Shown here piece by piece: positions 19,870-41,554 of a DNA stretch of 64,000 nt; the stretch's first letter is position 1, and every line of letters begins with the position of its first letter. The stretch comes from Sphingomonas hengshuiensis (GTDB lineage: Bacteria; Pseudomonadota; Alphaproteobacteria; Sphingomonadales; Sphingomonadaceae). The notes under the pieces are model-generated. The model had not been told where the DNA came from. It did no database searches and worked only from the letters and a program-made list of their open reading frames with translations. The stretch lies in the NCBI RefSeq assembly GCF_000935025.1, contig NZ_CP010836.1, positions 186,001-250,000 of the forward strand. The letters run 5' to 3'. The position numbers were made by a program, and so were the translations under genes.

Positions 19870-20764
19870 CGTCGTTGTTCTCAACATGTGCGAGCTGCCG
19901 CTCATCGCTCGAAGCGCCGCCAGGAGCGCAAGAATCTGCTTGGAGAGGGGGACCCGATGCGGGCGGCCCCTCTTCATTTTCTCGCCGGGGATGGTCCAGA
20001 CCTTCGCTGATAGGTCGAACTCTCCCCACTCAGCAGCGCGCAGTTCGCCCGGACGCACAAAGACGTGTGGGGCGATCCGAAGCGCCAGGGCAACCGATGG
20101 CTGACCCTCGTAACCATCTATGGCGCGCAAGAGTGCGCCCACCTTGTCGGGTTCGATGATTGCGGCGTGATGCTTGACCTTGGGCGTGATAAGGGCGCCC
20201 TGGAGATCGGCTGTCGGGTCCCGCTGCGCCCGTCCGGTGGCGATTGCGTAGCGAATGACGCTGCTGCAGGTGCTACGAAGGCGTCGTGCCGTCTCGTAGC
20301 GGCCTCGGACCTCTACAGTCCTCAATACGGTGAGCAGCTCGGGCGCGCTGATGTCGCCGATCGGCCGAGGGCCGATCAGCGGGTTGGCGAACCCGATCAG
20401 CCACCGGAGCTTTTCGAGGGTCTTTGCCGCTCGCCCCTCGGCCTCGATCTTCCTCAGCCATTCGTCGGCGACGGTAGCCGGCCGAAATGCTGCCCACCCC
20501 GCGGGTCAGCTTGCCGTAGGAGGAAGGGTTGATGCCCTTCTCGAGCAATTTCCGAGCATTCTCTCGGCGTTCACGCACCTCCTTAAGGGCTACGTCCGGG
20601 TAGACGCCCAGGGCGACGGTGCCGCGTTTGCCGTCATGTCGGTAGTCCCATCGCCAGTACCGACCACCGCCAGGCTGAACGAGGAGGTACATGCCGTGCA
20701 TGTCCTGAGTCTTGAACGCTTTGTCCCGCGGTTTGATTCGACGGACGGCTGCATCGGTGAGCAT
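19870..20764 (-). pseudogene. Decayed P4-type tyrosine integrase
   Basis: The N-terminal piece (from ATG 20764: MLTDAAVRRIKPRDKAFK, then DMHGMYLLVQPGGGRYW and GTVALGVYPDVALKEVRERR) is the DUF4102 domain of P4-like integrases. The continuation (SAPELLTVLRTVEVRG, GRYETARRLRSTCSSVIRYA, RPGELRAAEWGEFDL with the first catalytic Arg) is in another frame; the shift lies near 20480. Homology stops near 19870-19900, before the second catalytic box and the tyrosine, so it is also truncated. Its 5' end faces the tRNA-Phe fragment at 20926, as for an integrase left by an earlier island. Confidence 0.85.
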
Positions 20765-20925
20765 GACGGTCTCCTCAGCTGGCGCAGTGCTGATGCCGTC
20801 AAAATATACTGCCAGGGGCCGCGGGTTCCAATGGATCGACCCGGATTTGGGTGGATCAGATACCGTCAAAACCCACGCAAAACTGCGGATTTTTGAACGT
20901 TCTTGGATCTGTACGGAAAGGCAAA

Positions 20926-20970
20926 TGGTGCCCGGGGACGGATTCGAACCGCCGACACTGCGATTTTCAG
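20926..20970. repeat. Left attachment repeat (tRNA-Phe 3' fragment)
   Basis: 45 bp identical to 41479-41523: CCA, acceptor, T arm, variable loop and part of the anticodon arm of tRNA-Phe. After the identity ends the sequence diverges (CGGCAGCG against TCGCATGC), so this is a bare att site and not a tRNA gene. Confidence 0.92.
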
Positions 20971-21022
20971 CGGCAGCGCTCCATGCGTAACTAATTCAGA
21001 TAAAAACGGAAATACAGTATGC

Positions 21023-22191: not shown

Positions 22192-23322
22192 ATGATCGGA
22201 CGCCCGCTCGATGAGATTTCCCTTGCCGATATCATGGCGCTGACCGCCTATGGCCGAAGCGAAGGGCCGACGCTCGACTTCAAGGAGCGGTTCCCCGGCG
22301 CCGACCACAAGGGCGTGCGCGACTTCCTCGCCGATGTGACCGCCTTCGCCAACACTGAGGGCGGCGACATCATCATCGGCGTGCGTGAGGACAAGAACGG
22401 GGTCGCGGCAGAGGTGGTCGGCATCGAGCGGGAGGGGCTGGACGAACGTTTGCGGCGGATCGACGACCAGCTGCGCAGCTGCGTCGACCCGCGGGTGCCG
22501 CACTTCCGGGTGCGGGAGGTTCCGCTCGAGAATGGCCGCGTCACGCTGGTGATGCGTGTGGCCGCCAGCCTAGCTGCGCCGCACCGCGTCGTCTTCGACA
22601 AAAGCAGCCGCTTCTTCCGCCGCGCAAACCGGGGAAATTACGAGATGAGCACCGCAGAGCTGCGCCAGGCCTTTGCTGCATCGATCGATCTTCCAGCGCG
22701 CATCCGCGATCTCCATCGCAAGGCTGTCGCGGCCAGCGCCGGCACCGATATGCCCTTCCGCATCTACGAAGGCCCCACCGCAGTGGTGACGGTCGCGCCG
22801 GTGTCGGTGCTGCGCGCCGCGCGCGATGTCGATGTCACGCGCGATGTCGCCGTGCTGCCGCCGCGGCACACCAGCAATACGCAAATGATCGTCGCCCTCG
22901 ACGGCGTGATCGCACATTCGCCGGTCGACGCGAAAACCGGCGGCGTGCGAGGCTGGGCGGTGAACCACCGCCTCGGGTATGTCGATCTGGCCTGGAGCAT
23001 CGGTCATTCCGATCACGAGGGCCACAAGCTGGTCTGGCCCAAATACTTCGTGCCGCAGTTAAAGGGGATTGTGCCGTTCGCGATCACAAGGCTCCGAAGC
23101 TATGAGATCGAAGGCCCCTGGATCGCCATGCTGACGCTCACCGGCGTCAAGGACTATCGGATCATCGCCGGCGACGACTGGGTGACCGAGCCTGCGTGGC
23201 AGGACTTGGCTTATCTCGGCGAAATCGTCCACGATGCCATGGCCGCGGAGGCGCTGCTGCCCTTCACCCAGGGGTTCTGGCGGCTGTTCGGTGAGGATCG
23301 CCCGCCGGTCTCGCAGCTATGA
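22192..23322 (+). CDS. AlbA_2 (Schlafen-like) domain protein
   Basis: 376 residues. The N-terminal ~110 residues match the AlbA_2 domain: EGPTLDFKERF, then VRDFLADVTAFANTEGGDII and IGVRED, followed by APHRVVFDKSSRFFRRANRG. This Schlafen-related domain is predicted to bind nucleic acid or nucleotide and is frequent in mobile elements and defence loci. The C-terminal ~200 residues are not recognised. It lies alone on the plus strand of the island, 30 bp ahead of an IS-split gene. Role in regulation or defence is possible but unproven. Confidence 0.8.
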   Translation: MIGRPLDEISLADIMALTAYGRSEGPTLDFKERFPGADHKGVRDFLADVTAFANTEGGDIIIGVREDKNGVAAEVVGIEREGLDERLRRIDDQLRSCVDPRVPHFRVREVPLENGRVTLVMRVAASLAAPHRVVFDKSSRFFRRANRGNYEMSTAELRQAFAASIDLPARIRDLHRKAVAASAGTDMPFRIYEGPTAVVTVAPVSVLRAARDVDVTRDVAVLPPRHTSNTQMIVALDGVIAHSPVDAKTGGVRGWAVNHRLGYVDLAWSIGHSDHEGHKLVWPKYFVPQLKGIVPFAITRLRSYEIEGPWIAMLTLTGVKDYRIIAGDDWVTEPAWQDLAYLGEIVHDAMAAEALLPFTQGFWRLFGEDRPPVSQL

Positions 23323-23560: not shown

Positions 23561-24491
23561 GAGCCTGATTCGAAAGTTTCTTAATCTAGACAATATCTTG
23601 CGGTTCGTCGGATGAGCATGCGGATGGATGCGACGAGCGCCCAGGCGGTGGAGGAAGCGATAGAAGTTTCCCAGTCCTTGGCGAGGCGTCGGCATCGTCC
23701 GAGCCAGGCGAAGGTTCGTTCCACGACCCATCGGCGAGGCAGGAGTTGGAAGCCTTTGGCAGCGTCGGAACGCTTGATGATCTCGACGGTCCACCGGCCC
23801 ATGTCAGCGAGTGCGTCGCGGAGCTTGTCTCCGGCATAGCCACCATCGGCGAACAGGTGCCGCAGCCACGGGAAGCGATGCCGTATCGCCGCCAGGACAT
23901 CGACGGCGCCGTCGCGATCCTGGATGTCGGCAGCATGGACGAGAACGAAGATCAGAAATCCGCAGGTGTCGGTGACGATATGCCGCTTGCGGCCTTTCAC
24001 CTTCTTGCCCGCATCATAGCCCGAAATTCCGCCGCTTTCGGTGGTCTTGACCGACTGGCTGTCGATCACGCCGGCCGATGGCGAGGCTTCGCGCCCTTCG
24101 ATCTCGCGCAGGTTCATCACCAGCAGCGTGTTGATCGCATCGAACAATCCGGCATCGCGCCATGCGTAGAAATAGCGCCGAACCGTCGAGGCCGGGGGGA
24201 AGCATTTCGGCAGTAGTCGCCACGCGCATCCGGCAGAGGCAAGATACAGCAGCGCGTTCAAAACCTCGCGCATGTCCGTCGTCCGACGTCGCCCGCCCGT
24301 CTTGGCCGGCGGGATGAACGGCGCCGCCAAAGCCCATTCGCGGTCCGTCATATCGCTTGGATACCGCAACCCCTCCCGGCTATGCTCCCGCCGGGCGATA
24401 CCAGACCATGCCATGTTTCACTCCACCTCGTCGCAAGGGCGCCGTGAATCACAACATGCTGGTATCGCTCAACAACTTTCGGATCGGGCTC
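23561..24491 (-). mobile_element. Insertion sequence, IS5 family (IS1031-like group), 931 bp
   Basis: Ends are imperfect inverted repeats: GAGCCTGATTCGAAAGTT at the left, and GAGCCCGATCCGAAAGTT read inward from the right (two mismatches in 18). Flanked by a 3-bp TCA duplication (23558-23560 and 24492-24494), the TNA target typical of the IS1031 group. One transposase gene fills the element. Intact ends and frame suggest a recent, possibly still active insertion. Confidence 0.92.
23581..24414 (-). CDS. IS5-family DDE transposase
   Basis: 277 residues, full length. The N-terminal PSDMTDREWALAAPFIPPAK and ALLYLASAGCAWRLLP segments and the catalytic triad are visible: Asp in GVIDSQSVKT, Asp in HLFADGGYAG, Glu in RWVVERTFAWLGRCRRL. 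A single frame without programmed frameshift, as in the IS1031/IS427-type single-gene members. No stop or shift interrupts it. Confidence 0.95.
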   Translation of the reverse strand: MAWSGIARREHSREGLRYPSDMTDREWALAAPFIPPAKTGGRRRTTDMREVLNALLYLASAGCAWRLLPKCFPPASTVRRYFYAWRDAGLFDAINTLLVMNLREIEGREASPSAGVIDSQSVKTTESGGISGYDAGKKVKGRKRHIVTDTCGFLIFVLVHAADIQDRDGAVDVLAAIRHRFPWLRHLFADGGYAGDKLRDALADMGRWTVEIIKRSDAAKGFQLLPRRWVVERTFAWLGRCRRLAKDWETSIASSTAWALVASIRMLIRRTARYCLD

Positions 24492-25055: not shown

Positions 25056-25595
25056 ATGATTGTGGGGTACGCGCGCGTCAGCAGCGCGGGGCAGAACCTG
25101 GATGTACAAGAGGCGGTGCTCGCCGAGGCCGGATGCGAAAAAACGTTCAGCGAAAAACAAAGCGGGACAACTGTGACGGGCAGGGCGGCGCTCGCGGCGG
25201 CGCTGGACTTCGTAAGGGCGGGGGACACCCTTCTGGTTTGCAGGCTTGATAGGCTGGCTCGCAGCGTGGCCGACCTTCACCGGATCATTGAACGCCTCAA
25301 CGATAAGGACGTGGGCTTCCGGGTGGTTCAGCAGGCGGGCATCGATACGACGAGCAGCACCGGCAAGCTCACCATGGCGATCCTGGGCGCGGTCGCGGAG
25401 TTCGAGACCGAGATCAGAAAGGAGCGCCAGCGCGACGGCATCGCGAAGGCAAAGGCCGCCGGGGTTTACAAGGGCCGCCGAGCAACCATTTCTGCAGACC
25501 GAGTGCGCGAGCTTCACACGGGTGGCATGCGGCCCGTCGATATTGCCCGCGAGCTCGGGATAGGCCGCGCAAGCGTCTACCGGTTGCTTGGATAG
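25056..25595 (+). CDS. Serine recombinase (resolvase/invertase family)
   Basis: 179 residues. The catalytic domain starts MIVGYARVSSAGQNLDVQ with the nucleophile at Ser9, continues LDRLARSVADLH and AVAEFETEIRKERQRDGI, and ends in a Hin-type helix-turn-helix (MRPVDIARELGIGRASVYRL). The length is that of TnpR/Pin-type enzymes. ACGGAGG lies six bases upstream of the ATG. It could resolve multimers or invert a segment of the island; a matching cross-over site was not identified in the 229 bp upstream. Confidence 0.92.
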   Translation: MIVGYARVSSAGQNLDVQEAVLAEAGCEKTFSEKQSGTTVTGRAALAAALDFVRAGDTLLVCRLDRLARSVADLHRIIERLNDKDVGFRVVQQAGIDTTSSTGKLTMAILGAVAEFETEIRKERQRDGIAKAKAAGVYKGRRATISADRVRELHTGGMRPVDIARELGIGRASVYRLLG

Positions 25596-31309: not shown

Positions 31310-32590
31310 TCAACGGGCTGATAGCCGCTCTTTGAGCGGGGCGGTGATGTCAGACGAGATCGGGTCATCTAGTGCTGACACCGGACCTGCGGCGGTCTCC
31401 GCGTCTGTCTTAACGATGATCATATCGGTAACGACGTGGTCCACCTCCACGTCCGGCTTGTTCACCACCTCCCACTCTCCTCGGATCCACATCGAGTAGA
31501 GTTCGAAGGGGTCGTTAGGATTCTGCGCGGGGTCGGCATAGGTGGCCGTCTCGACGTAGGGGATGCCGACCTTGAGGCGCTTTCCCGATATCTGGCCGTA
31601 TAGGTGATCGTAGCAGGCCAGCAGCACCGCGATCGACAGCAGCTTGGAAGAAAGCGGGGACACGAAAGCCTTGCATCCGCCGAGAACGTTGAGCGCCAGG
31701 CGATAGCGGTCCATCGCCTCGAACACCTGCTTGTAAGCCTCGAACGGGTTGTATTCACAGGCGAGCAAGATATTGCGGGGTTCGACTTGGAAGGTGTCGA
31801 ACAGCAGCTCACGATGTTCGTAGATGATCTCGTCTCCGCGGCGCGGAGAGCGGGATGGGAATGGCACGACGGGACAGATCTCGTCGGGCGTGACCTTCTG
31901 GTGAATCTTGTCGAGGCGGTCGCGCTGGTTCTCGCCGAGCACGGGAAACCAGACGTTGGGCAGATCCTTCGTGGTAAGAGCGGTGAGCTCACCGGAGAAG
32001 CCGCGTACGAACGAGACCTGATCGCGCAGCGACCCCTGACCGGCGCCGAGGTCGGCGGTGACGCTCTCGGCCGTGGTCACGTGCAGGTTCACGCACTTGT
32101 TGCCCTCGGGCGGGTGGTCGAGCCAGTATAGCAGTACAGCGACGCTGGTCATGGCGACCATGCGCGGCATCGCGCTGATGTCGACCACCACATCGTCATA
32201 GGCCATGGCGTCGCCCGCGGCGAGGATCTGCTCGTAGGTGGTGCGCGAGGCTATCGGATCCTCAAACGCACCGCCGAGGTCGATCAACACTTCCTTAACG
32301 CGATCTGCCGGGAACAGCTTGCCGAGACCCTCGACGTTGTCGTCCGTCCGCTGCCGCCGCAGCGCGCTGTCGTCCTGTCCATTGTGGAAGGCGAGCAGCC
32401 AAACGTCGACGTCGGCTCCAAGGGCGTGCAGGCGCCGTGCGGTCTCCAACGCCCTCACGTCGAAACCCTTCCCGACGACCAGCAGCAGGCGACGCTGGCG
32501 TTGGGCGAGATGGCGCTTCCAGAAGACGTCGAAATCCAGGTCGCTCGCCAGCGAGTAGGGATCCCAGCGCATCACTGCTTGGTCAGACAA
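31310..32590 (-). CDS. Unknown protein, third member of the PRTase-ATPase unit
   Basis: 426 residues from TTG at 32590, supported by GAGGAG at a spacing of seven and by an 8-bp overlap with the ATPase gene; an ATG at 32572 is the fallback. The N-terminus has a Rossmann-like beginning (QRRLLLVVGKGFDVRALETA, ~33-50), an LLAFHNGQDD loop and a YDDVVVDISAMPRMVAMTSV strand-turn (~131-150). The C-terminal half (ILLACEYNPFEAYKQVFEAM) is not recognised. Co-translation with the ATPase and PRTase implies one complex or pathway. Confidence 0.75.
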   Translation of the reverse strand: MSDQAVMRWDPYSLASDLDFDVFWKRHLAQRQRRLLLVVGKGFDVRALETARRLHALGADVDVWLLAFHNGQDDSALRRQRTDDNVEGLGKLFPADRVKEVLIDLGGAFEDPIASRTTYEQILAAGDAMAYDDVVVDISAMPRMVAMTSVAVLLYWLDHPPEGNKCVNLHVTTAESVTADLGAGQGSLRDQVSFVRGFSGELTALTTKDLPNVWFPVLGENQRDRLDKIHQKVTPDEICPVVPFPSRSPRRGDEIIYEHRELLFDTFQVEPRNILLACEYNPFEAYKQVFEAMDRYRLALNVLGGCKAFVSPLSSKLLSIAVLLACYDHLYGQISGKRLKVGIPYVETATYADPAQNPNDPFELYSMWIRGEWEVVNKPDVEVDHVVTDMIIVKTDAETAAGPVSALDDPISSDITAPLKERLSAR

Positions 32591-34481
32591 AGGTCGGCTC
32601 CTCTTCCTTGCCGCCGTATGCCTGCCAGGCCATCAGGTCTTTGATCTTTTTCTCCCGCCAGCCGCCGTATCCGAGCGGCAGGCCGAACTGCACGCAGAGC
32701 AACCGGTTCAGGTAGAAGACGACGAACTTCTTGTTTTTGTTGCTGTGGTCTAGCCGCGGGACGAGCAGGTTGTGCGCGACCAGCGAGGTGAGCACGTCGC
32801 GCAGGCCGCGAAGATGCTTGATCTGGTCGTCGGGTGTGTCGATCAGTGCCTCGCGGTCCTGCATCGTAATGCCGATGCCGGTCACGCCCGGCATGTAGGG
32901 CGCCGTCTCCCGGAAGGTCTGCGCGCGGCAGAACGTCCCAATCCCCTCGAGGAGCGTCTTGGCGTCTCGTCCGAGCGGAAGCCGGCGGGTCAGGTCGTCC
33001 CATCGGGCCTTGGCGACGCCCGTAATGATGCTGTGCTGCCGGTCGGCGTTCAGAGGCATGGGGTTGTCCCGGACGAACTGGATCTTGGCGGAGATCTCTT
33101 CGAACAGCTCGCCGGCCACAGCGAGATACTGCTCCACGTTGTAGGACGACACATCCGCGATCGTGTCGCGGCCGAAGTAGATTGGCGCACCGATCTCGGT
33201 GCGCACGAAGTGCTCGGCGGCCCGCGCGGCGCCGCTGCTTCCGCGCTTGTCGAGCTCGTCAGTCGACAGGGACACGAAGTCGAACGCCTGCTGCTGGTTC
33301 CGCATGTCTCGCGCGATTAGGATCTCGGCCATCCGCCATTGGACGGCCTTCTCCACCGCGCTGCCTTTCTTCGCGCGCGCGGCGTCGAGCCAGAGGTCAT
33401 AGCGTGGCGACGAGCCCTTCGCCGCAACGATCCGCGTCTCGATGGCGGCACACGCTTCCTCGAACTTCGGCGCCCATACCGTAAGGTCGTCGCCGTCCGA
33501 GATCAGGGTGAACAGGTCCCGATCTCCGAAGTTGTCGGCCTTCGCGGCGCGCAGCTGGGCGATATTCTCGACGAAGCGGGAATAGGCCACCCCGCGCTTG
33601 TCGCTCCACTGCCGCTCGAGCTGAATCACCCCGCTATAGTCGCGGTTCTCGAGCGCCCCTTCGGAAAGCAAATCCTTGTGCGTGAGGGTTTCCAGCCGCT
33701 CGGCGATCCAGACGCCGCACTTGGCACGGGCCGCCGTTACAAAGTCGAGAAGCGATCGCCGCTGACCGGCGGAGAGGGTCTGGAGCTCGTCGAAGAGCAG
33801 CACGCGTCTGACGACCACGTCTCCGAACGGTTCGGTGATGCGGGAGTTGGCGAACCACTTCAGGCCATCGAGCCGGGCGTGTCCTCCGTGGACCGGCCGC
33901 GGCTCTCCGAGGACGTCCATGCGGCCGTAGAAGTCCGTCTCGATCTGCGACGCCCAAGCGAAGAGCTCATCGCCGGTCGCGGACGCCGGAATAGTGCTTC
34001 CGGACTCCGGCTCCCACTCGAACCTGATATGGCGGAGATCACGGGGGAACGGTCGACCCAGCCTCTCAAGCACGGCGCGCAGCGTCGCGATCACGATGCG
34101 CGAGTTGACGAGCTCGCGGAAGAGGGAGTTGCCGCGGTCGAACGCGGCCAGTTCGCGAAACTCGCTCGTGAACTCCACCATGGTGCCCAGAAGTTCTGCC
34201 CCATCCGGACCGATGGCGCCGACCGAGCGCAGCGCCTCCTGCGTCGCCTTGACCGCCGAACTGCCACTGGCCAGCGAATTGGCGAGGCCGAGCGGTCGCG
34301 GGGTCATCAGACGCAGAAACGTGGTCTTCCCGCCACCCGGCGCGCTGCGGAGGAAGGAGACGCTGCCCCATGGATCGTTGATGTTGTGGACGAGATCGAT
34401 CGCGCCGGCGCCGAAGAGCCGCACGAACTCCTCGTCCGACGTCGCCTTCTGCGACGCGCTGATACGAAAGGGGTTTCTCAC
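32583..34481 (-). CDS. ORC/CDC6-like P-loop ATPase
   Basis: 632 residues from the GTG at 34481, which overlaps the PRTase stop in a GTGA junction and places NPFRIS at the N-terminus as in relatives. Walker A: SAPGGGKTT (46-54). Walker B: VLLFDELQTL (227-236). The C-terminal half looks helical with a winged-helix-like end (RGLRDVLTSLVAHNLLVPRL). From memory, ORC/CDC6-like ATPases of this type accompany phosphoribosyltransferase-like proteins in predicted bacterial conflict systems. Likely the sensor or switch of the unit. Confidence 0.8.
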   Translation of the reverse strand: MRNPFRISASQKATSDEEFVRLFGAGAIDLVHNINDPWGSVSFLRSAPGGGKTTFLRLMTPRPLGLANSLASGSSAVKATQEALRSVGAIGPDGAELLGTMVEFTSEFRELAAFDRGNSLFRELVNSRIVIATLRAVLERLGRPFPRDLRHIRFEWEPESGSTIPASATGDELFAWASQIETDFYGRMDVLGEPRPVHGGHARLDGLKWFANSRITEPFGDVVVRRVLLFDELQTLSAGQRRSLLDFVTAARAKCGVWIAERLETLTHKDLLSEGALENRDYSGVIQLERQWSDKRGVAYSRFVENIAQLRAAKADNFGDRDLFTLISDGDDLTVWAPKFEEACAAIETRIVAAKGSSPRYDLWLDAARAKKGSAVEKAVQWRMAEILIARDMRNQQQAFDFVSLSTDELDKRGSSGAARAAEHFVRTEIGAPIYFGRDTIADVSSYNVEQYLAVAGELFEEISAKIQFVRDNPMPLNADRQHSIITGVAKARWDDLTRRLPLGRDAKTLLEGIGTFCRAQTFRETAPYMPGVTGIGITMQDREALIDTPDDQIKHLRGLRDVLTSLVAHNLLVPRLDHSNKNKKFVVFYLNRLLCVQFGLPLGYGGWREKKIKDLMAWQAYGGKEEEPTFV

Positions 34482-35602
34482 GGCTGCTGCAGCTTCCGAT
34501 GTCGGCTGACCCGGGGAAAGAGACCGCGCACGGTCTGCACGTCCTCGGCCCATAGGATATAGACCGAGTTGTTCGGCGTGTTGTGGTTGAGCACGATTGG
34601 AAGACGGCCGTTCGCGTAGCCGTAGCGCTTGGTGCTGCCGCCGACCGCTCCGTGCTTGTCGTCCGCCTCCGGGTCGAAATAGCGGTCATCTGCCATCAGG
34701 TCGAAAAAGGCCGCGTCACGAGACTCGTCGAGCGGAACGAGCGAGCCGAGCTTGCAGACGACTTCGAATTCGACCGTGCCCTTGGTGAAGGGCAGGGAGG
34801 GAAGCAGTTTGCCGATATGCTCGATTGCCTGCTCACTCGCGATGTATGCGACGATGATCACCTTCACGCTTTGGATCACGCTGGCGCCTAGGCGTTCATC
34901 GTCCTTTTCGAGATCCTCGATGATCTTGGGGATCTTGCCCTTCCACTTGCCGGCCTCTTCGTCGTAGCGGATCGCGCTGGTGCCGCTGGCGGTGAAGTCG
35001 TCGAGGAGCACCACGGTTTCGAACAGCGCGTCGTCGCCATCGGGCTCGGCGCCCGACATCTCCGTAAGGTCCTTCTTGAGGTTGTCGACCATGTCGGAGC
35101 TCTTGACCTCGGACACGTCGTAGGCGTGGAACACCTGCTCGTTCGAGATCGACGGGTTGGCGCGGCGGAACCAGTCGGTACGGGCCCCGTCGCTCATCCC
35201 GAGGTAGAGCGTGCGGCGGTGCAGCTTGCGATACTCGGCCGTCTCCATGATCGCCTTGATCCGATCGACCGCGACGCCGCTTCGTGCGCTCGCGGTCTCG
35301 ATCAGCCTGGGTCGGACGATCGTCGGAAAGGTCAGCTCGACCAGATGGTTCATCTCACCCGCGCTGAAAAAGATGAGGCGGTTGCAGACGAAGTCGTAGG
35401 CGGTGCGGCGCTGGCTTCCAACGTCGAACTGGGCGAGCCAGAGCGCGAGGCTCTCGATAAACCGCCTGCCGGGAGAGAACTGCTGATACTCGTCGTATTT
35501 GTAGCTCGAGAACGTCTCGAGCCGCGCCCGCTCACGCGCCTTCTCCTCGTCCGTCCAGTCCATGATCCTGGTCAGGAGAGCCTCGGCCAACTCCTTCTTC
35601 AC
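34478..35602 (-). CDS. Phosphoribosyltransferase-like protein (PRTase-CE type)
   Basis: 374 residues from GTG at 35602 with GGGAG at a spacing of seven. The PRPP-binding signature of type I phosphoribosyltransferases is visible as VVLLDDFTASGTS (197-209). The rest differs from housekeeping enzymes: a helical N-terminus (~1-100) and a long C-terminal part after ~250. This is the arrangement I associate with the PRTase-CE family of predicted conflict systems. It may make or break an N-glycosidic ribose-phosphate bond on a nucleotide signal or target. Followed without a gap by the ATPase gene. Confidence 0.78.
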   Translation of the reverse strand: MKKELAEALLTRIMDWTDEEKARERARLETFSSYKYDEYQQFSPGRRFIESLALWLAQFDVGSQRRTAYDFVCNRLIFFSAGEMNHLVELTFPTIVRPRLIETASARSGVAVDRIKAIMETAEYRKLHRRTLYLGMSDGARTDWFRRANPSISNEQVFHAYDVSEVKSSDMVDNLKKDLTEMSGAEPDGDDALFETVVLLDDFTASGTSAIRYDEEAGKWKGKIPKIIEDLEKDDERLGASVIQSVKVIIVAYIASEQAIEHIGKLLPSLPFTKGTVEFEVVCKLGSLVPLDESRDAAFFDLMADDRYFDPEADDKHGAVGGSTKRYGYANGRLPIVLNHNTPNNSVYILWAEDVQTVRGLFPRVSRHRKLQQP

Positions 35603-35698
35603 GCAGTCGCTCCCGGTGCTTGCCGCTGTCGTCCAGCGCGACCGGCCCCTCTCTGCGCTAGCAATACACGGCAGCCCGGCGATTGCATCAGGATTCGG

Positions 35699-36112
35699 TT
35701 AGATTGCGGGGTTGCCTACAGGTGAAGCATCCGAACTGGCTTCTTTCCCTCGTTTGCCCGACGTCACCTTGGCCACGGCATCAATGACCGCGACCAGCCG
35801 TTCGGCTCCCTGCGGGGTCTGATCCCAGGCGCGTCGGACCGACGCTTCCAGCTTCGCCCAGGCCGCACGCTTCCTGACTTCCTTGGGGGCGGCATCGTCG
35901 TCGTCTTCACCATGCGGATTGATCCCCAGTGCGTTGCAAATTCGCAAGACGTTGCCGCTGACAGTGCGAAACTGGCCGTCGAGGATGCGCGACGTCTGGC
36001 CCGGATCCACGCTCGCGATCGCAGCCAATTCGGCGTTGGAGAGCGAGGTCTTCGCACGCCGCCGCCGGATCAGTCCGACCAACTTTTCTCTTTCCTCCCG
36101 ACTCGGCTTCAT
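35699..36112 (-). CDS. Helix-turn-helix (XRE-like) regulator
   Basis: 137 residues from the ATG at 36112; the ATG at 36124 lies inside the operator and is less likely. The helix-turn-helix is in LSNAELAAIASVDPGQTSRI with FRTVSGNVLRICNALGINP. An acidic linker (GEDDDDAAP) and a second helical part follow. It stands 96 bp upstream of the PRTase gene in the same direction and is divergent from the NADAR gene, with a palindromic operator over the shared promoter. Probable repressor of both arms. Confidence 0.82.
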   Translation of the reverse strand: MKPSREEREKLVGLIRRRRAKTSLSNAELAAIASVDPGQTSRILDGQFRTVSGNVLRICNALGINPHGEDDDDAAPKEVRKRAAWAKLEASVRRAWDQTPQGAERLVAVIDAVAKVTSGKRGKEASSDASPVGNPAI

Positions 36113-36145
36113 GCATATTAGCATGCATATTCGGTGCTAATATGC
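36113..36145. promoter_or_regulatory. Palindromic operator between regulator and NADAR gene
   Basis: GCATATTAGCA (36113-36123) and TGCTAATATGC (36135-36145) are perfect inverse repeats 11 bp apart, with a further GCATAT half-site in between. The element directly abuts the regulator start (36112) and ends 15 bp before the NADAR start, so binding should shut both genes. Confidence 0.7.
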
Positions 36146-36160
36146 AATAGGAGTTAGTCG

Positions 36161-36649
36161 ATGGCCGAGGACGAGATCCGCTTTTACCGGGCGAGCGAGA
36201 AGCCCTACGGCGCCTTTAGCAACCTCTATCGTCGTGCGGTCGAGTTTGAGGGCGAGACTTTCGCCACCAGCGAACACGCCTATCAGGCGGGCAAGGCAAG
36301 GAAGCCGGAGGTTCGAGACTGGGTTCTCTCGGCGCCGTCGCCGGCGCTGGTCGCAATGGCCGCCCATGGCCTCTACTACTGGGACATCGCACCCGGGTGG
36401 TCGCGCACGAAGTTCGACCGGATGCGCGGCGTTCTTCGCGCCAAGTTCACCCAGCACGAGGATCTGAAAGAGATGCTGCTCGCGACCGGTGACGCGCGTC
36501 TCGTCGAGAGCGCGACGGTGGACAACGAGGTCAATCGGCTCTGGGGCGAAGTGAACGGCGAGGGGCGCAACATGCTCGGACAGCTCCTCATGGAGCTTCG
36601 CGCGAGCCTCCGCGAGGAGGCGTCCAGCCCTACGCGCAGGGCGGCCTGA
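36161..36649 (+). CDS. NADAR-domain protein (YbiA/DUF1768 family)
   Basis: 162 residues; AGGAG at a spacing of seven ahead of the ATG. NADAR motifs in order: YGAFSNLY (16-23), TSEHAYQAGKA (36-46), MRGVLRAKF (88-96) and VDNEVNRLWGEVNGEGRNML (120-139), including the Glu and Trp-Gly residues of the active site. NADAR proteins hydrolyse N-glycosidic bonds of ADP-ribose-linked or riboflavin-pathway compounds, and some act as antitoxins that reverse guanine ADP-ribosylation. Here it stands alone on the plus strand amid the PRTase, kinase and HAD genes. Confidence 0.9.
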   Translation: MAEDEIRFYRASEKPYGAFSNLYRRAVEFEGETFATSEHAYQAGKARKPEVRDWVLSAPSPALVAMAAHGLYYWDIAPGWSRTKFDRMRGVLRAKFTQHEDLKEMLLATGDARLVESATVDNEVNRLWGEVNGEGRNMLGQLLMELRASLREEASSPTRRAA

Positions 36650-36658
36650 CGCCGGGGC

Positions 36659-37597
36659 TCAGAACGCGGCCAGTATCGTCCTGGCGTGCTGTGGGCCGCG
36701 CTCGCGGAAGAGTCCGCGGGCTCCGATGTACGCGCAGTTCGCCGCGGCCAGGCGCTGACCCGACTTGACCCCGGAAAGGACGATCGGGAGCGACAGGCCT
36801 TCGGAGCCCCGTACGCCCGCCTGTATGATCGCGTCGATTAGGCCGAGCGTGACCATGTCGCCCGCGCCGCAGGTGTCTTTCACCACGCCCGCATCGATCG
36901 CCTCGCACCGGTATGCAGCCCCGTCGTGCCGCACCTCTAGGCCGAATCGACCGGCGGTGACGATGCTGAAGGCCTCGGGCCGCAGCCGTTCGGCCACGTC
37001 GGGATCGAGCCGGTCCGCCGAATACTTAAAGATATGCGCGGCGGAGAGCGCTCGTTCGAACAGGTCCGGGTCCGAAATCGACGAGGGTTCGAAGTGGACG
37101 ATCGCGCCTCCGTCGGCTGCCGCCTCCATCGCGTCGCAGATCGCCGCCGAGACTCTGTCCGCGTAGAAAACGGCGCACGAAGACACCGCGGGTCGCGCCG
37201 GCTCCAGTTCACGCAGCGTGATCGGTTCGAAGCCGCCGAACCTTTCGAACGAGTGCGGGCAGACGAAGGAGAAGCTGTGGTCGCTTGACGCCAGATCCAG
37301 CATCTCGACGATCACCGGCGTCCTGATCTCCTCGTCGAGCCAGACTAGCTTGGTGTCCGCTCCGGCGAGGCGGAGATCTCGCTCGAGCCGCTCGCCGACC
37401 CGATCGGTTCCCAGTCGCAGCAGCGGGATCACGGAGCGGCCCAGCATCGCGAGCGAGATCAGCACGTTACCGCACGATCCGCCGAGCTCCTCGAAGAGTG
37501 GCTCCTGCTCGTCGACGTGGATGCGGTCCAGCGCGACCAGTCCGGTGCCGACCACCTGGCCGTAGGATGCGGACATGGAATGCATCTGAAAGTTCAT
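36659..37597 (-). CDS. PfkB family carbohydrate/nucleoside kinase
   Basis: 312 residues from the ATG at 37597, overlapping the SIS-HAD stop (ATGA). PfkB signatures: ELGGSCGNVLISLAMLG (38-54) and KDTCGAGDMV (240-249) with the catalytic Asp and anion-hole glycines. Ribokinase, adenosine kinase and sugar kinase members share these, so the sugar or nucleoside substrate is open. Tight coupling to the SIS-HAD gene points to successive steps on one sugar phosphate. Convergent with the NADAR gene, nine bases away. Confidence 0.88.
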   Translation of the reverse strand: MNFQMHSMSASYGQVVGTGLVALDRIHVDEQEPLFEELGGSCGNVLISLAMLGRSVIPLLRLGTDRVGERLERDLRLAGADTKLVWLDEEIRTPVIVEMLDLASSDHSFSFVCPHSFERFGGFEPITLRELEPARPAVSSCAVFYADRVSAAICDAMEAAADGGAIVHFEPSSISDPDLFERALSAAHIFKYSADRLDPDVAERLRPEAFSIVTAGRFGLEVRHDGAAYRCEAIDAGVVKDTCGAGDMVTLGLIDAIIQAGVRGSEGLSLPIVLSGVKSGQRLAAANCAYIGARGLFRERGPQHARTILAAF

Positions 37598-39504
37598 GCG
37601 GGACTCGCGCTGAGGAAATCGAGGTCGAGGCGAGCATGCCCGCTTTCGGTGCGGAGCGCGCGCAGAATCCGCAGCAGCGCAACCGGCCCCGACGAGGCGC
37701 GTCCGAACAGCGACCAGCTGCCCCCGAGATGGCCGCACACTCCGTCGACGCTGACGCTCGGCGAGCGCCTCAGTAACTCGGTATCGTTTCCGCCTGGCTC
37801 GCCGCTGTCGCCGATTGCTAGAACGTGGTGATCGGAGCCCATTCGCCGGTGCATCTCGTCGGTCACCGCAGTCTTGCTGGTGGCCGATGGGAGAAGGTCG
37901 AAGCTGTGGTGCGAGCTCAGTGCCTTGATGCGACCGTCTGCGACTGCGGCGAAACCGGCCACGCGGGAGGCGAAGGCTGCCGGATCCGTGAGCTCGTCGT
38001 GCCGTATCGTGATCTGGACCTCGCCCCGCTTGAGCCTGGTTCCCGGGGCAAGCAGCGACTGCCCCTCGATCCAGTCGGCGAGAGCGACGAGATTGGCGTC
38101 GGCTTCGGGGCGGTCGTTCTCGATGTCCGCGTCCAGCGTTCGCACATGGCCGCCGTTGTAGTAGCCGACCGCGACAGTCGAATGTAGCCTCTCGGGCAGA
38201 GCCTTTCGCAGCGCGTCGCCGGCAGACCCGCCTCGCCCCGTCGCGAAACCTATCGAGATACCGGCGTCGGCGAGGCGGACCAGTTCGGAAATGATTTCCG
38301 GCGCGGGCGGATCCAGTCGGGCTTCGGTGGTAACCACCGTTCCGTCGTAGTCAAGCAAGATGCCGCCGATGCAGGCATTGGACAGCCCTTTCAGCCACGC
38401 CTTCCGGGCCTCCGGCGCGTCGCCGACCGGGCAGGTCGGGTCGTCATAATGGTGCACGGCTTGGAGCTTGTGGCGCACTGCGGGGTCGAGCGCGCTGGCA
38501 AGTTCCGCGAGGCCGGTGTCGCCGTAGATGGCTCCCGCGAACTCGCCCCGTCCTGGTCGGCCGGGATCGATTCCGGCCGCGTCGCCAAGGGCTCGGACCA
38601 CGTCCAGGCCGTCCGCGATCGAGACCGCCGTTCCAAAGCGGCCTGCGTGGCCGAGGTCGATCTCGACCGCGCGGATAGTGTCTGGCAGGGCGCTGCGGAT
38701 GCCGGCCCAAATGTCGCGGGACGTCGCCGCCGTCACCGAAATCACCAGCATGCTGTCCGGATGCCGGGCGGCCCAGACGTGTCGACCGTGAGCAAAGTTC
38801 CTGAAGTCGGCGCGCTGGACCGGCGCGATTGCGGTCTCCCACAGGGAGGTCTCGATCAGCGTTGCGATCGTGCGGCACTGAGGATCGTGCAGGACGACAA
38901 CGGTGTCGCCAGGTCTGAGGTCGATGCTGCGGGGCGCAGCTGCGACGCGCTCGACCTCGCCTGCCAGGCGGCCGACCGTCTCGGTCGAGCCGGATTGGCT
39001 CGAGACCATGTCGGCCGCGGCCAGCATGCAGGTCGCCATAGCGACGAGCGAATGGGTGGCGAGGAAGCCGTCCTTGCGTTCGGCCACGGGCGCGACGAGC
39101 ACCCGGCAGCGATCTTCCCGCGCCGCCGCGACGGCCGCCGCGCCATCCCGGTTGACGGTCAAAATCGTCACGCCTGATGCCGCCGAGGCCAGTGCTGCGG
39201 TCAGCGCCGCGACGGCGTCGGGATTGTCGGCACCGGCGCTAAATATCCACACGTCGCAACCGGACATGTCGTCCCCGGCCACCACGAACTCCATCGGGGT
39301 CTGCACGGTCGTCGGTCCGTGGCCGAATGTCGTCCGGCAACGGGCGAAGAACTCCGCCATGATCGCCGATCCCCCGGATCCGATCGCGATGGCGGGCCGG
39401 CCCGCATTCGCGCGCAGCGCGTCCGCGAGCGCGCCGAGCGGCCCGTCGGCAGCTAGGCGCACGGTCTCGACGAGTGTCGAGAGCTTGTCGGCGAAGACTG
39501 TCAT
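37594..39504 (-). CDS. SIS domain - HAD phosphatase fusion
   Basis: 636 residues; AGGAAA six bases before the ATG at 39504. The N-terminal half is a sugar-isomerase (SIS) double domain: AIGSGGSAIMAEFF (40-53), VWIFSAGADNPD (85-96), then VVVLHDPQCRTIATLIETSL. The C-terminal half (~378-620) is a Cof/sucrose-phosphatase-like HAD: GGILLDYDGTVV (380-391, Asp385 and Asp387), ATGRGG, Lys544 and the metal site GDSGEPGGND (565-574). SIS binds or isomerises phosphosugars and HAD removes phosphate; joining them in one chain is unusual. First gene of a pair with the kinase. Confidence 0.88.
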   Translation of the reverse strand: MTVFADKLSTLVETVRLAADGPLGALADALRANAGRPAIAIGSGGSAIMAEFFARCRTTFGHGPTTVQTPMEFVVAGDDMSGCDVWIFSAGADNPDAVAALTAALASAASGVTILTVNRDGAAAVAAAREDRCRVLVAPVAERKDGFLATHSLVAMATCMLAAADMVSSQSGSTETVGRLAGEVERVAAAPRSIDLRPGDTVVVLHDPQCRTIATLIETSLWETAIAPVQRADFRNFAHGRHVWAARHPDSMLVISVTAATSRDIWAGIRSALPDTIRAVEIDLGHAGRFGTAVSIADGLDVVRALGDAAGIDPGRPGRGEFAGAIYGDTGLAELASALDPAVRHKLQAVHHYDDPTCPVGDAPEARKAWLKGLSNACIGGILLDYDGTVVTTEARLDPPAPEIISELVRLADAGISIGFATGRGGSAGDALRKALPERLHSTVAVGYYNGGHVRTLDADIENDRPEADANLVALADWIEGQSLLAPGTRLKRGEVQITIRHDELTDPAAFASRVAGFAAVADGRIKALSSHHSFDLLPSATSKTAVTDEMHRRMGSDHHVLAIGDSGEPGGNDTELLRRSPSVSVDGVCGHLGGSWSLFGRASSGPVALLRILRALRTESGHARLDLDFLSASPA

Positions 39505-40002: not shown

Positions 40003-41259
40003 TCAGCGCCACTGCGGACGCAACTGATCTTTTAACTGCTCGACCGACACCTGTCCGTAGAACTTATCGATCATATCCGGGGACGTGCCGCAGTTTCGCG
40101 CGAGGGCAAAAACATCGACCCCAGCGATGAGCTGCTGACTGATGTAGAAGTGCCGGAAACTGTAACTGTCACGTTTCATGCCGCGGTGGTCTGTCTTCAG
40201 CTCGGCCGCTTCAAGCAGCGACGTAAGGCTATTGTTGATGGATGTAAGCCGGTTGCCGTTTGCGGCGGCAAACACTGGATCTTTATCCGCAGGCTCGGCG
40301 CCGTGATGGCCGGCTTTCCACAGATCCCAGAGCCTGTCGAATTCGTGCAACGTGCCTTCAAGCGGAATAAACTCGCGAGCCTTACCCTTGCCGCGCGCAC
40401 GTATGCGGATGTCCCTATCGCGCGCTGGCTTGGTTCTGCCTTCGCGGTAATGCAGGATGTCACCCCAGTTAAGATTGCGGATCTCGGTCGGCCTCATGCC
40501 GGACGCGGCGGCGATGGTGATATATGCGTAGAGAATTTGCCGATCACGCTTCACCTCGCTGTTGATCGATTTTTCCCAAATGCGATTCTGGGCCAGCTTC
40601 AGCAGCTTTTGCATCTCGGAGATCGAGAAGCTGGGTCGCGGGGATGGTGGAACACGTGGCGTATCCACATCAGGAATTTGCGCTTGGTTGAGATATCCCC
40701 ACTTCGCGCCCTGTCGAAATAGCTGCCGTAGGACGACCGCTTCGCCGCGCTGGGTGCTTAGGCTGGACGCGCCGCGAAGATCGGTCGCAGGCCGACGCAG
40801 CCGCTTACCGCCGCGCTCATATTCGATGTGCGTTTGATCGGCGCCAGGACCCGTTGTCCAATAGCTCTTTCGCCACTCCTGGTATCGCGCGACATCGTGA
40901 TCGGTGATCGCCTCGATGGCTTTCTTGCCGAAGTAGGGAATAAAGTAACGACGGATCAGTGACGCATGCCGGCGATCAACACCGGCGCGACGTTCCCCTC
41001 GCTCAACCTCGCGCTCCAACTGCTTGATAAACTCTTCGGCAACGCGTTCGAAAGAACGTTGCACGGGGCGGAGGCCGTTTTCGGAGCGGTAGGTTGCATC
41101 GCGCCAAATCTTGTCTGCTTTTCGTCGCGCGTCCGCTTCATCCGACGTGCCCAGCGAATTTCTGATCTGTCCTGCGCCGCGGATGCTGAAGCGCACCCAC
41201 CAGATCGAGCTGCCCTTGCGTTGGAAAATCTTAAACTGCTCTGCCCGCGCATCTGACAT
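40003..41259 (-). CDS. Tyrosine recombinase (island integrase)
   Basis: 418 residues. An N-terminal arm- and core-binding part (FERVAEEFIKQLEREVERGE, VARYQEWRKSYW) is followed by the catalytic domain with Arg256 in GMRPTEIRNLNW, the second box YSFRHF (366-371, Tyr in place of the usual His before the second Arg), and nucleophile Tyr401 in DKFYGQ. Complete and undamaged. It sits 220 bp from tRNA-Phe inside the att repeat, so it is the enzyme that integrates and excises this island. Confidence 0.93.
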   Translation of the reverse strand: MSDARAEQFKIFQRKGSSIWWVRFSIRGAGQIRNSLGTSDEADARRKADKIWRDATYRSENGLRPVQRSFERVAEEFIKQLEREVERGERRAGVDRRHASLIRRYFIPYFGKKAIEAITDHDVARYQEWRKSYWTTGPGADQTHIEYERGGKRLRRPATDLRGASSLSTQRGEAVVLRQLFRQGAKWGYLNQAQIPDVDTPRVPPSPRPSFSISEMQKLLKLAQNRIWEKSINSEVKRDRQILYAYITIAAASGMRPTEIRNLNWGDILHYREGRTKPARDRDIRIRARGKGKAREFIPLEGTLHEFDRLWDLWKAGHHGAEPADKDPVFAAANGNRLTSINNSLTSLLEAAELKTDHRGMKRDSYSFRHFYISQQLIAGVDVFALARNCGTSPDMIDKFYGQVSVEQLKDQLRPQWR

Positions 41260-41478: not shown

Positions 41479-41523
41479 TGGTGCCCGGGGACGGATTCGA
41501 ACCGCCGACACTGCGATTTTCAG
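41479..41523. repeat. Right attachment repeat, inside tRNA-Phe
   Basis: The 45 bp identical to 20926-20970. They form the 3' part of the intact tRNA gene, so integration leaves the tRNA functional. Confidence 0.92.
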
Positions 41524-41554
41524 TCGCATGCTCTACCAACTGAGCTACCCGGGC
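41479..41554 (-). tRNA. tRNA-Phe (GAA)
   Basis: 76 nt on the minus strand with encoded CCA. The acceptor GCCCGGG pairs with CCCGGGC; the D arm has GCTCAGTTGGTAGAGC; the anticodon stem GCGAC/GTCGC-type arm encloses the loop CTGAAAA with anticodon GAA; the T arm contains GGTTCGAATCC. It follows yacG by 53 bp and marks the right border of the island. Confidence 0.97.

Follow-up and report, generated by a model that had tools for sequence, protein, structure and literature searches.

A mobile phosphoribosyltransferase–ATPase–CARF cassette with phosphosugar-type enzymes in Sphingomonas hengshuiensis, a candidate bacterial conflict system

The window analysed here is a stretch of 64,000 nt of Sphingomonas hengshuiensis DNA (NZ_CP010836.1), within which all coordinates are counted. 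At positions 31310-39504 it carries seven genes that a sequence-only reading had proposed to be a conflict-type system on a tRNA-Phe island, and the open reading frames place them on the strands then given, all minus except that of the NADAR gene. The cassette, built around a phosphoribosyltransferase (PRTase), an ORC-type ATPase and a CARF protein, is composed as follows:

37594..39504, minus strand: SIS-HAD, a phosphosugar isomerase/deglycase-like domain fused to a HAD-IIB phosphatase (core gene)
36659..37597, minus strand: PfkB sugar kinase (core gene)
36161..36649, plus strand: YbiA-like NADAR N-glycosidase, divergent from the HTH gene (accessory)
35699..36124, minus strand: Cro/C1-type HTH regulator (accessory)
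34478..35602, minus strand: PRTase-CE phosphoribosyltransferase, the likely effector (core gene)
32583..34481, minus strand: ORC/CDC6-like AAA+ ATPase (core gene)
31310..32590, minus strand: tandem CARF sensor without effector domain (core gene)

Three overlapping junctions noticed in the letters are indeed there: the PRTase stop and the ATPase start share GTGA at 34481-34478, the SIS-HAD stop and the PfkB start share ATGA at 37597-37594, and the TTG start of the CARF gene, at 32590, gives an 8-nt overlap with the ATPase stop. Because of these overlaps, the ATPase gene probably starts at 34481 and the PfkB gene at 37597, and not at the starts of the longest open reading frames. As for the protein families initially proposed, the PRTase, ORC-type ATPase, NADAR, PfkB and HAD assignments were borne out in Pfam, whereas the HTH regulator stayed below the cut-off (HTH_31, E 1.1e-4) and the SIS half had no Pfam match.

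The PRTase, the ATPase and the CARF protein form what we will call block 1. The PRTase is a member of PRTase-CE (PF24390, E 3.3e-19, 70.2 bits against a Pfam cut-off of 27), a name reportedly given by Nicastro in 2023 to predicted nucleotide-degrading effectors. Its loop for phosphoribosyl pyrophosphate (PRPP) is intact, with D201, D202, S206 and G207 invariant in 22 sequences, and the PADLOC profile PRTase_III-A also matches it (E 9e-13). Its profile found one weak match only among PDB sequences (E 0.036), and a Foldseek search with its model returned no match at E 0.001 or better. The ATPase lies above the curated cut-off of the ORC-CDC6-like family (PF24389, E 2.1e-17), and the Walker A lysine and Walker B aspartate are kept in 37 of 37 aligned sequences; weak matches to Cas12b (PADLOC E 1.7e-4; NCBIfam 13.3 bits against 150) were taken as chance. 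The third protein, originally left as unknown, turned out to be a tandem CARF protein of the CARF6 family (PADLOC PDLC01910, E 2.5e-110, residues 7-374). Its profile has no match among PDB sequences up to E 1, and the CARF-type Rossmann fold comes from a predicted structure, whose top fold matches are mostly proteins linked to cyclic oligoadenylates. The genome also encodes a further PRTase-CE, which forms the C-terminal part of a protein of 902 aa that also has an HD domain (L061:6099-8807; G000:C1, about 4.54 Mb), and no cassette gene was found near it.

The remaining genes make up block 2. In SIS-HAD, the HAD half matches PF08282 (E 2.1e-5), TIGR01484 below its cut-off and HAD proteins in PDB, the profile of the SIS half matches SIS phosphosugar isomerases in PDB, and the motif residues of both halves are invariant in 22 sequences. 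The kinase belongs to PF00294 (E 3.2e-11) with fructokinases as best PDB matches, and its GxGD residues do not vary in 20 sequences. The NADAR protein is placed in its family by Pfam and PDB matches (PF08719, E 1.3e-26, 94.2 bits against a cut-off of 35.1; E 3.2e-22 against ybiA, 2b3w), with 27 positions invariant in 24 NADARs, and the NADARs of other cassettes are 67-93% identical to that of the window.

The central result is that these genes are kept together. Among 38 distinct loci, the PRTase, ATPase, CARF and SIS-HAD genes occur in 38/38 each, PfkB in 36/38, NADAR in 20/38 and the HTH gene in 15/38. A core of five genes is found in 36 of the 38, in shuffled order and in distant taxa. The sequence-only picture of a seven-gene system fits in part, as the whole set is complete in only 15/38, with NADAR and the HTH regulator as optional members. 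The HTH gene was seen only with NADAR (none of the 15 HTH loci is without it), and no kept locus is without both PfkB and NADAR; the only two without PfkB (L035 and L084) have a NADAR gene co-directional with SIS-HAD. Loci cut by a contig end (L005, L009, L026), a truncated CARF standing alone despite its flanks (L011), a HAD cousin (L041), a CARF fragment (L042), two loci with the same CARF as L015 and L016 (L029 and L067) and two pieces from genome G025 (L068, L069) were dropped before this tally, and two loci with genes in pieces (L040) or with one PRTase in two pieces (L031) were kept. As the loci were found through CARF, SIS-HAD or PRTase, the value of 38/38 for these genes is partly selection, and the seeded comparisons are the fair tests.

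Three such comparisons were done. The search with CARF gave at least 24 loci in genome contigs, 3 of them cut by contig ends, 1 with the truncated CARF alone and 20 with a neighbourhood in range; in these 20, all five core genes were found in every case, and NADAR and the HTH gene in 8. In 72,556 plasmid records, CARF was matched in 17, SIS-HAD in 18 and both in 16, an overlap with a hypergeometric probability of 9e-62 when the relatedness of plasmids is ignored; neighbourhoods were read for 14 of the 17 CARF-matching and for 2 SIS-HAD-only records, and in the other three CARF-matching plasmids (H11, H12 and H14) the matches of CARF and SIS-HAD are about 3 kb apart. In the genomes of the class, CARF (E 1e-15) and SIS-HAD (E 1e-20) each found 3 of 385, and these were the same three, with S. 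hengshuiensis among them, in a survey where only some first-look candidates were scored, and in one of the three (G025) both matches are on separate short contigs. Finally, the PRTase search covered 385 genomes of the class and 398 of the phylum and gave 29 distinct places, the two of this genome being in both sets. In the six places with ORC ATPase and CARF, SIS-HAD was present in 6/6, PfkB in 5/6 and NADAR in 4/6, whereas SIS-HAD or PfkB occurred in 0/23 of the other places within the stretch read (Fisher p 2e-6), with flanks of mostly 7-8 kb, shorter in L057, L074, L077 and L086. At E 1e-8, PF24390 had no match in G025, so this family search can miss members. Altogether, the lack of co-conservation that the sequence-only reading had named as its own undoing was found in none of the three seeded surveys, and its idea of one linked conflict-type system is well supported by them.

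The way in which the genes vary also agrees with the picture of two arms. Pairwise distances correlate at 0.97-0.98 within PRTase-ATPase-CARF, at 0.84-0.93 within SIS-HAD-PfkB-NADAR and at 0.59-0.80 across both groups (17 to 37 loci per pair; 0/2000 permutations reached the value, except 1/2000 for ATPase-NADAR), which divides the genes into two co-evolving blocks and places NADAR with SIS-HAD and PfkB. One arm would, on the sequence-only reading, make a ribosylated product that the other removes. In every complete locus the order PRTase-ATPase-CARF is fixed, and SIS-HAD, PfkB and NADAR shift around it. Moreover, two loci (L028 and L031, the latter with one unit cut at the edge) have two PRTase-ATPase-CARF units beside a single SIS-HAD/PfkB/NADAR block; the two CARFs of L028 are 65% and 25% identical to that of the window.

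Carriers, according to record titles, include Alphaproteobacteria of many genera, Paraburkholderia, Paenarthrobacter, Desulfosporosinus, Clostridia, Oscillospiraceae and Lachnospiraceae, together with metagenome-assembled genomes (MAGs) titled 'Deltaproteobacteria' and 'Bacteroidetes', titles which may be wrong. Among the loci read, NADAR is confined to those of Pseudomonadota. The CARFs of a Mameliella locus (L015) and of a Sulfitobacter plasmid (L029) are identical over the aligned part, a sign of recent transfer. A plasmid of Rhizobium sp. CC-CFT758 (L040) holds a decayed cassette with PRTase, CARF and SIS-HAD in pieces.

In S. hengshuiensis itself the cassette lies on a genomic island at a tRNA-Phe gene, as had been claimed, delimited by these features:

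41479..41554, minus strand: tRNA-Phe (gaa), the insertion site (ARAGORN and Rfam), whose positions 41479-41528 are the right attachment repeat
20926..20975, plus strand: left attachment-site repeat, where the 3' end of tRNA-Phe is duplicated over 50 nt (direct repeat, 96% to 41479-41528)
40003..41259, minus strand: tyrosine integrase (PF00589, E 8.1e-6, 26.2 bits against a cut-off of 27.1; XerC/XerD-type NCBIfam matches below cut-off)

The repeats bound 20,553 bp, and an exact 22-mer of the left one is present there and in the tRNA, with 0.01 matches expected by chance. Twelve relatives of the same genus match the tRNA or its right flank, and the left side was read in six of them, where integrase and cassette genes were not found near the syntenic tRNA (tblastn, E 1e-5, about 12 kb each). 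In one relative (G764) the left flank of the window (19891-20970) is directly joined to the tRNA, which makes an empty site. An integrase-like fragment, recognised by eye, stands just left of the repeat (20273-20869), and the flank adjoining it is kept in the empty site, suggesting that this tRNA once held an earlier island, now decayed. More cargo of the present island includes a Schlafen/AlbA_2-domain protein (22192-23322; PF04326, E 1.8e-14), an IS4/5-type transposase and a serine resolvase (23581-24414 and 25056-25595). A scan of the window with Rfam at gathering thresholds gave the tRNA only.

A CARF sensor raises the question of its signal. The palm2 domain of Cas10 (PF22335) was not found in 19 of 20 carrier genomes, several of which are MAGs, including this one, and was found in the other. 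In a control with 14 genomes, this profile passed its cut-off in 5, one of them E. coli, and therefore seems prone to false positives rather than misses. An accessory role in type III CRISPR was rejected on the 19/20 carriers where Cas10 was not found. The sole cyclase family tested, SMODS (PF18144), was not found in 15/20 carriers, again including this genome, and is present in 5/20. The CARF is consequently hardly fed by type III CRISPR, nor, in this strain, by a SMODS cyclase.

Several known systems share parts with the cassette. One of them is DS32, whose two NCBIfam members are NF053875, a 'phosphoribosyltransferase-like anti-phage protein', and NF053876, a 'NADAR family anti-phage protein'. 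In four loci (L057, L058, L070 and L071), a NADAR gene adjoins a PRTase-CE of the same Pfam family and no other cassette gene was found; the two that were tested, L057 and L058, are above both DS32 cut-offs, and no CARF, ORC ATPase, SIS-HAD or PfkB was found near them. The window proteins differ from DS32 in that NCBIfam gave nothing for the PRTase at E up to 1 and the NADAR reaches 65.8 bits against a cut-off of 240. With the four non-cassette NADARs only 29-33% identical to that of the window, the PRTase-CE/NADAR pairing recurs in both settings with two distant NADAR groups. In L057 (7896-11047) a NADAR comes after the PRTase-CE and shares one frame with a type I specificity subunit, and the neighbours look, by eye, like other type I restriction-modification genes. 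Passages on DefensePredictor name PRTase and NADAR domains and not DS32 (PMC13092281), which probably has its origin there.

There are further likenesses. CARF6 (PDLC01910) is a PADLOC entry without description, and the cassette now shows this family as a stand-alone tandem CARF in an operon with an ATPase and a PRTase. In DarT1-NADAR, according to passages of PMC11125620, NADAR erases a ribosyl adduct on guanine; the cassette likewise has a NADAR family protein, and among the eight proteins scanned (cassette and integrase) no DarT/ADP-ribosyltransferase Pfam match was found, a PRPP-type transferase standing instead. PRTases are described as typical effectors of type III retrons (PMC12548924), and DprA-PRTase, with the PRTase as probable effector, as protecting against T7 and lambda (PMC9122126); the window PRTase matches PRTase_III-A, and no reverse transcriptase or DprA Pfam match was found among the eight proteins. 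The nucleoside-signal module of the Ter system also combines PRTase and HAD phosphatase in a defence-linked locus (parts of PMC7824862), whereas the same eight proteins gave no match to Ter proteins, and CARF and ORC ATPase occur instead.

We consider that these data are best explained, with a probability of roughly 0.55, by a horizontally moving bacterial conflict system of two blocks, most likely anti-phage. This reading gains support from the gene content with its conserved active-site motifs, from the five-gene core kept in shuffled order and the co-occurrence in plasmid, class and PRTase-seeded surveys, from the fixed order of block 1, the block-wise correlations and the predicted CARF fold, from the PRTase_III-A match, the DS32 pair and the reported protection by DprA-PRTase, from the island with its repeats and empty site, and from there being no Cas10 or SMODS match in this genome. 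Block 1 would be a sensor-switch-effector unit, where CARF would bind a nucleotide-type ligand, the ATPase would act as the switch, and the PRTase, once released, would act on nucleotides or nucleobases by PRPP chemistry. Block 2 (SIS-HAD, PfkB and, in about half of the loci, NADAR with or without the HTH regulator) may act on what block 1 produces, a phosphosugar or ribosylated compound, and either undo it, protecting the uninfected host, or drive it to completion. A PRTase would form ribosyl bonds to guanine-type amines with PRPP as donor, or cleave such bonds. SIS enzymes of this type catalyse the isomerisation or deglycation of sugar phosphates, and phosphates are added or removed by PfkB and HAD enzymes. 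NADAR enzymes strip ribosyl from such amines, as described for ADP-ribose on guanosine in passages of PMC11125620, and also act on riboflavin intermediates (part of PMC9503650). The chemistry of these families supports a shared ribose-phosphate substrate, the direction and target of the reactions being inferred.

A number of observations weigh against this explanation. NADAR is absent from 18/38 loci, and PfkB from two, so NADAR is not an obligatory antitoxin, unless block 2 fills that job there. The window NADAR scores above the cut-off of a riboflavin-pathway N-glycosidase (TIGR02464, 84.9 bits against 73.7), and SIS-HAD and PfkB resemble ordinary sugar enzymes in their PDB matches. The cross-block correlation could partly reflect shared descent, and degenerate CARF pieces occur without other cassette genes (L011 and L042). 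As to carriage by phages, a pattern scan of viral_contigs with CARF gave 50 pattern stretches and no relative, and we found no phage or toxicity assay of the cassette in the open literature. Moreover, candidate sources of a CARF ligand are present in a minority of carriers, a SMODS cyclase in 5/20 and a Cas10 palm in 1/20.

Among other explanations, we think it rather unlikely, and still worth taking seriously, that the PRTase, SIS-HAD and PfkB build a nucleoside-like second messenger sensed by the tandem CARF, with NADAR as off-switch and the real effector being the ATPase-CARF pair or lying elsewhere. CARF proteins sense nucleotides, the top fold matches of this one are mostly cyclic-oligoadenylate-linked, the genome has no Cas10 or SMODS match, SIS-HAD is in all kept loci as expected of a messenger maker, and Ter is described as a system where PRTases and HAD phosphoesterases produce signals of nucleoside type (PMC7824862). 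However, block 2 has evolved separately from CARF (r 0.63-0.73) and the PRTase in step with it (r 0.98), one block 2 can be shared by two PRTase-ATPase-CARF units, and the retron and DprA sources place PRTases as effectors or probable effectors. Somewhat less probable in our view is nucleotide depletion, where the activated PRTase would break the glycosidic bond of nucleotides or consume PRPP, and block 2 with NADAR would remove ribose-phosphate and so block rebuilding of the pool; the conserved active-site residues of SIS-HAD, PRTase and PfkB fit with it, as does the reported origin of the name PRTase-CE, but a NADAR divergent from the HTH gene is unexplained as part of killing.

Ordinary sugar or nucleotide metabolism travelling on islands by chance is very improbable. 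Family resemblance of PfkB and SIS-HAD and the riboflavin-type score of NADAR speak for it, as does the HAD cousin (L041), which adjoins sugar ABC-transport genes; this cousin, however, is without both SIS motifs compared, and we rejected the idea given that the cassette is rare (3/385 class genomes), is carried by islands and plasmids, and is linked to a tandem CARF and an ORC ATPase, with PRTase-NADAR being a named anti-phage pair. Least credible of all are two independent modules that merely neighbour each other on this island. The partly separate histories of the blocks would agree with that, yet they are co-located in 38/38 kept loci, Paenarthrobacter and Clostridia records included; a chance neighbourhood was rejected on this co-conservation, and independence, hardly tenable by now for SIS-HAD and PfkB, may still apply to NADAR and the HTH gene.

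Within the two-block conflict system that we favour, a more specific and speculative version, which we doubt more than the depletion idea, has a CARF-gated PRTase that would phosphoribosylate an exocyclic amine of guanine-type bases, be it in nucleotides or in nucleic acid, a NADAR that would remove the fresh N-ribosyl adduct, and SIS, PfkB and HAD activities that would clear Amadori-rearranged adducts. Fructosamine kinases and deglycases clear adducts of the Amadori form. The cassette would in that case parallel DarT-NADAR on the basis of PRPP, include a repair line of its own and be, to our knowledge, the first conflict system with phosphoribosylation as writer and deglycation as eraser.

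PRTase-CE, ORC-CDC6-like and CARF6 are already named families, and DS32 is an already named pair. For the assembled cassette we recognised no description in the open literature that was searched, and this combination of genes may have been published before. Effectors of the PRTase type are found repeatedly, in retrons, next to DprA and in DS32, and for those of retrons a 2022 paper called the way they act unknown (passages of PMC9122126). In the cassette, a PRTase of this kind shares a fixed operon with an ATPase and a CARF sensor, beside enzymes seemingly fit for phosphosugars, and this neighbourhood narrows its likely chemistry to ribose-phosphate transfer or release, with substrates that can be tested. 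In addition, it puts a CARF family without Cas10 into a definite biological context and offers a way towards the ligand of that family.

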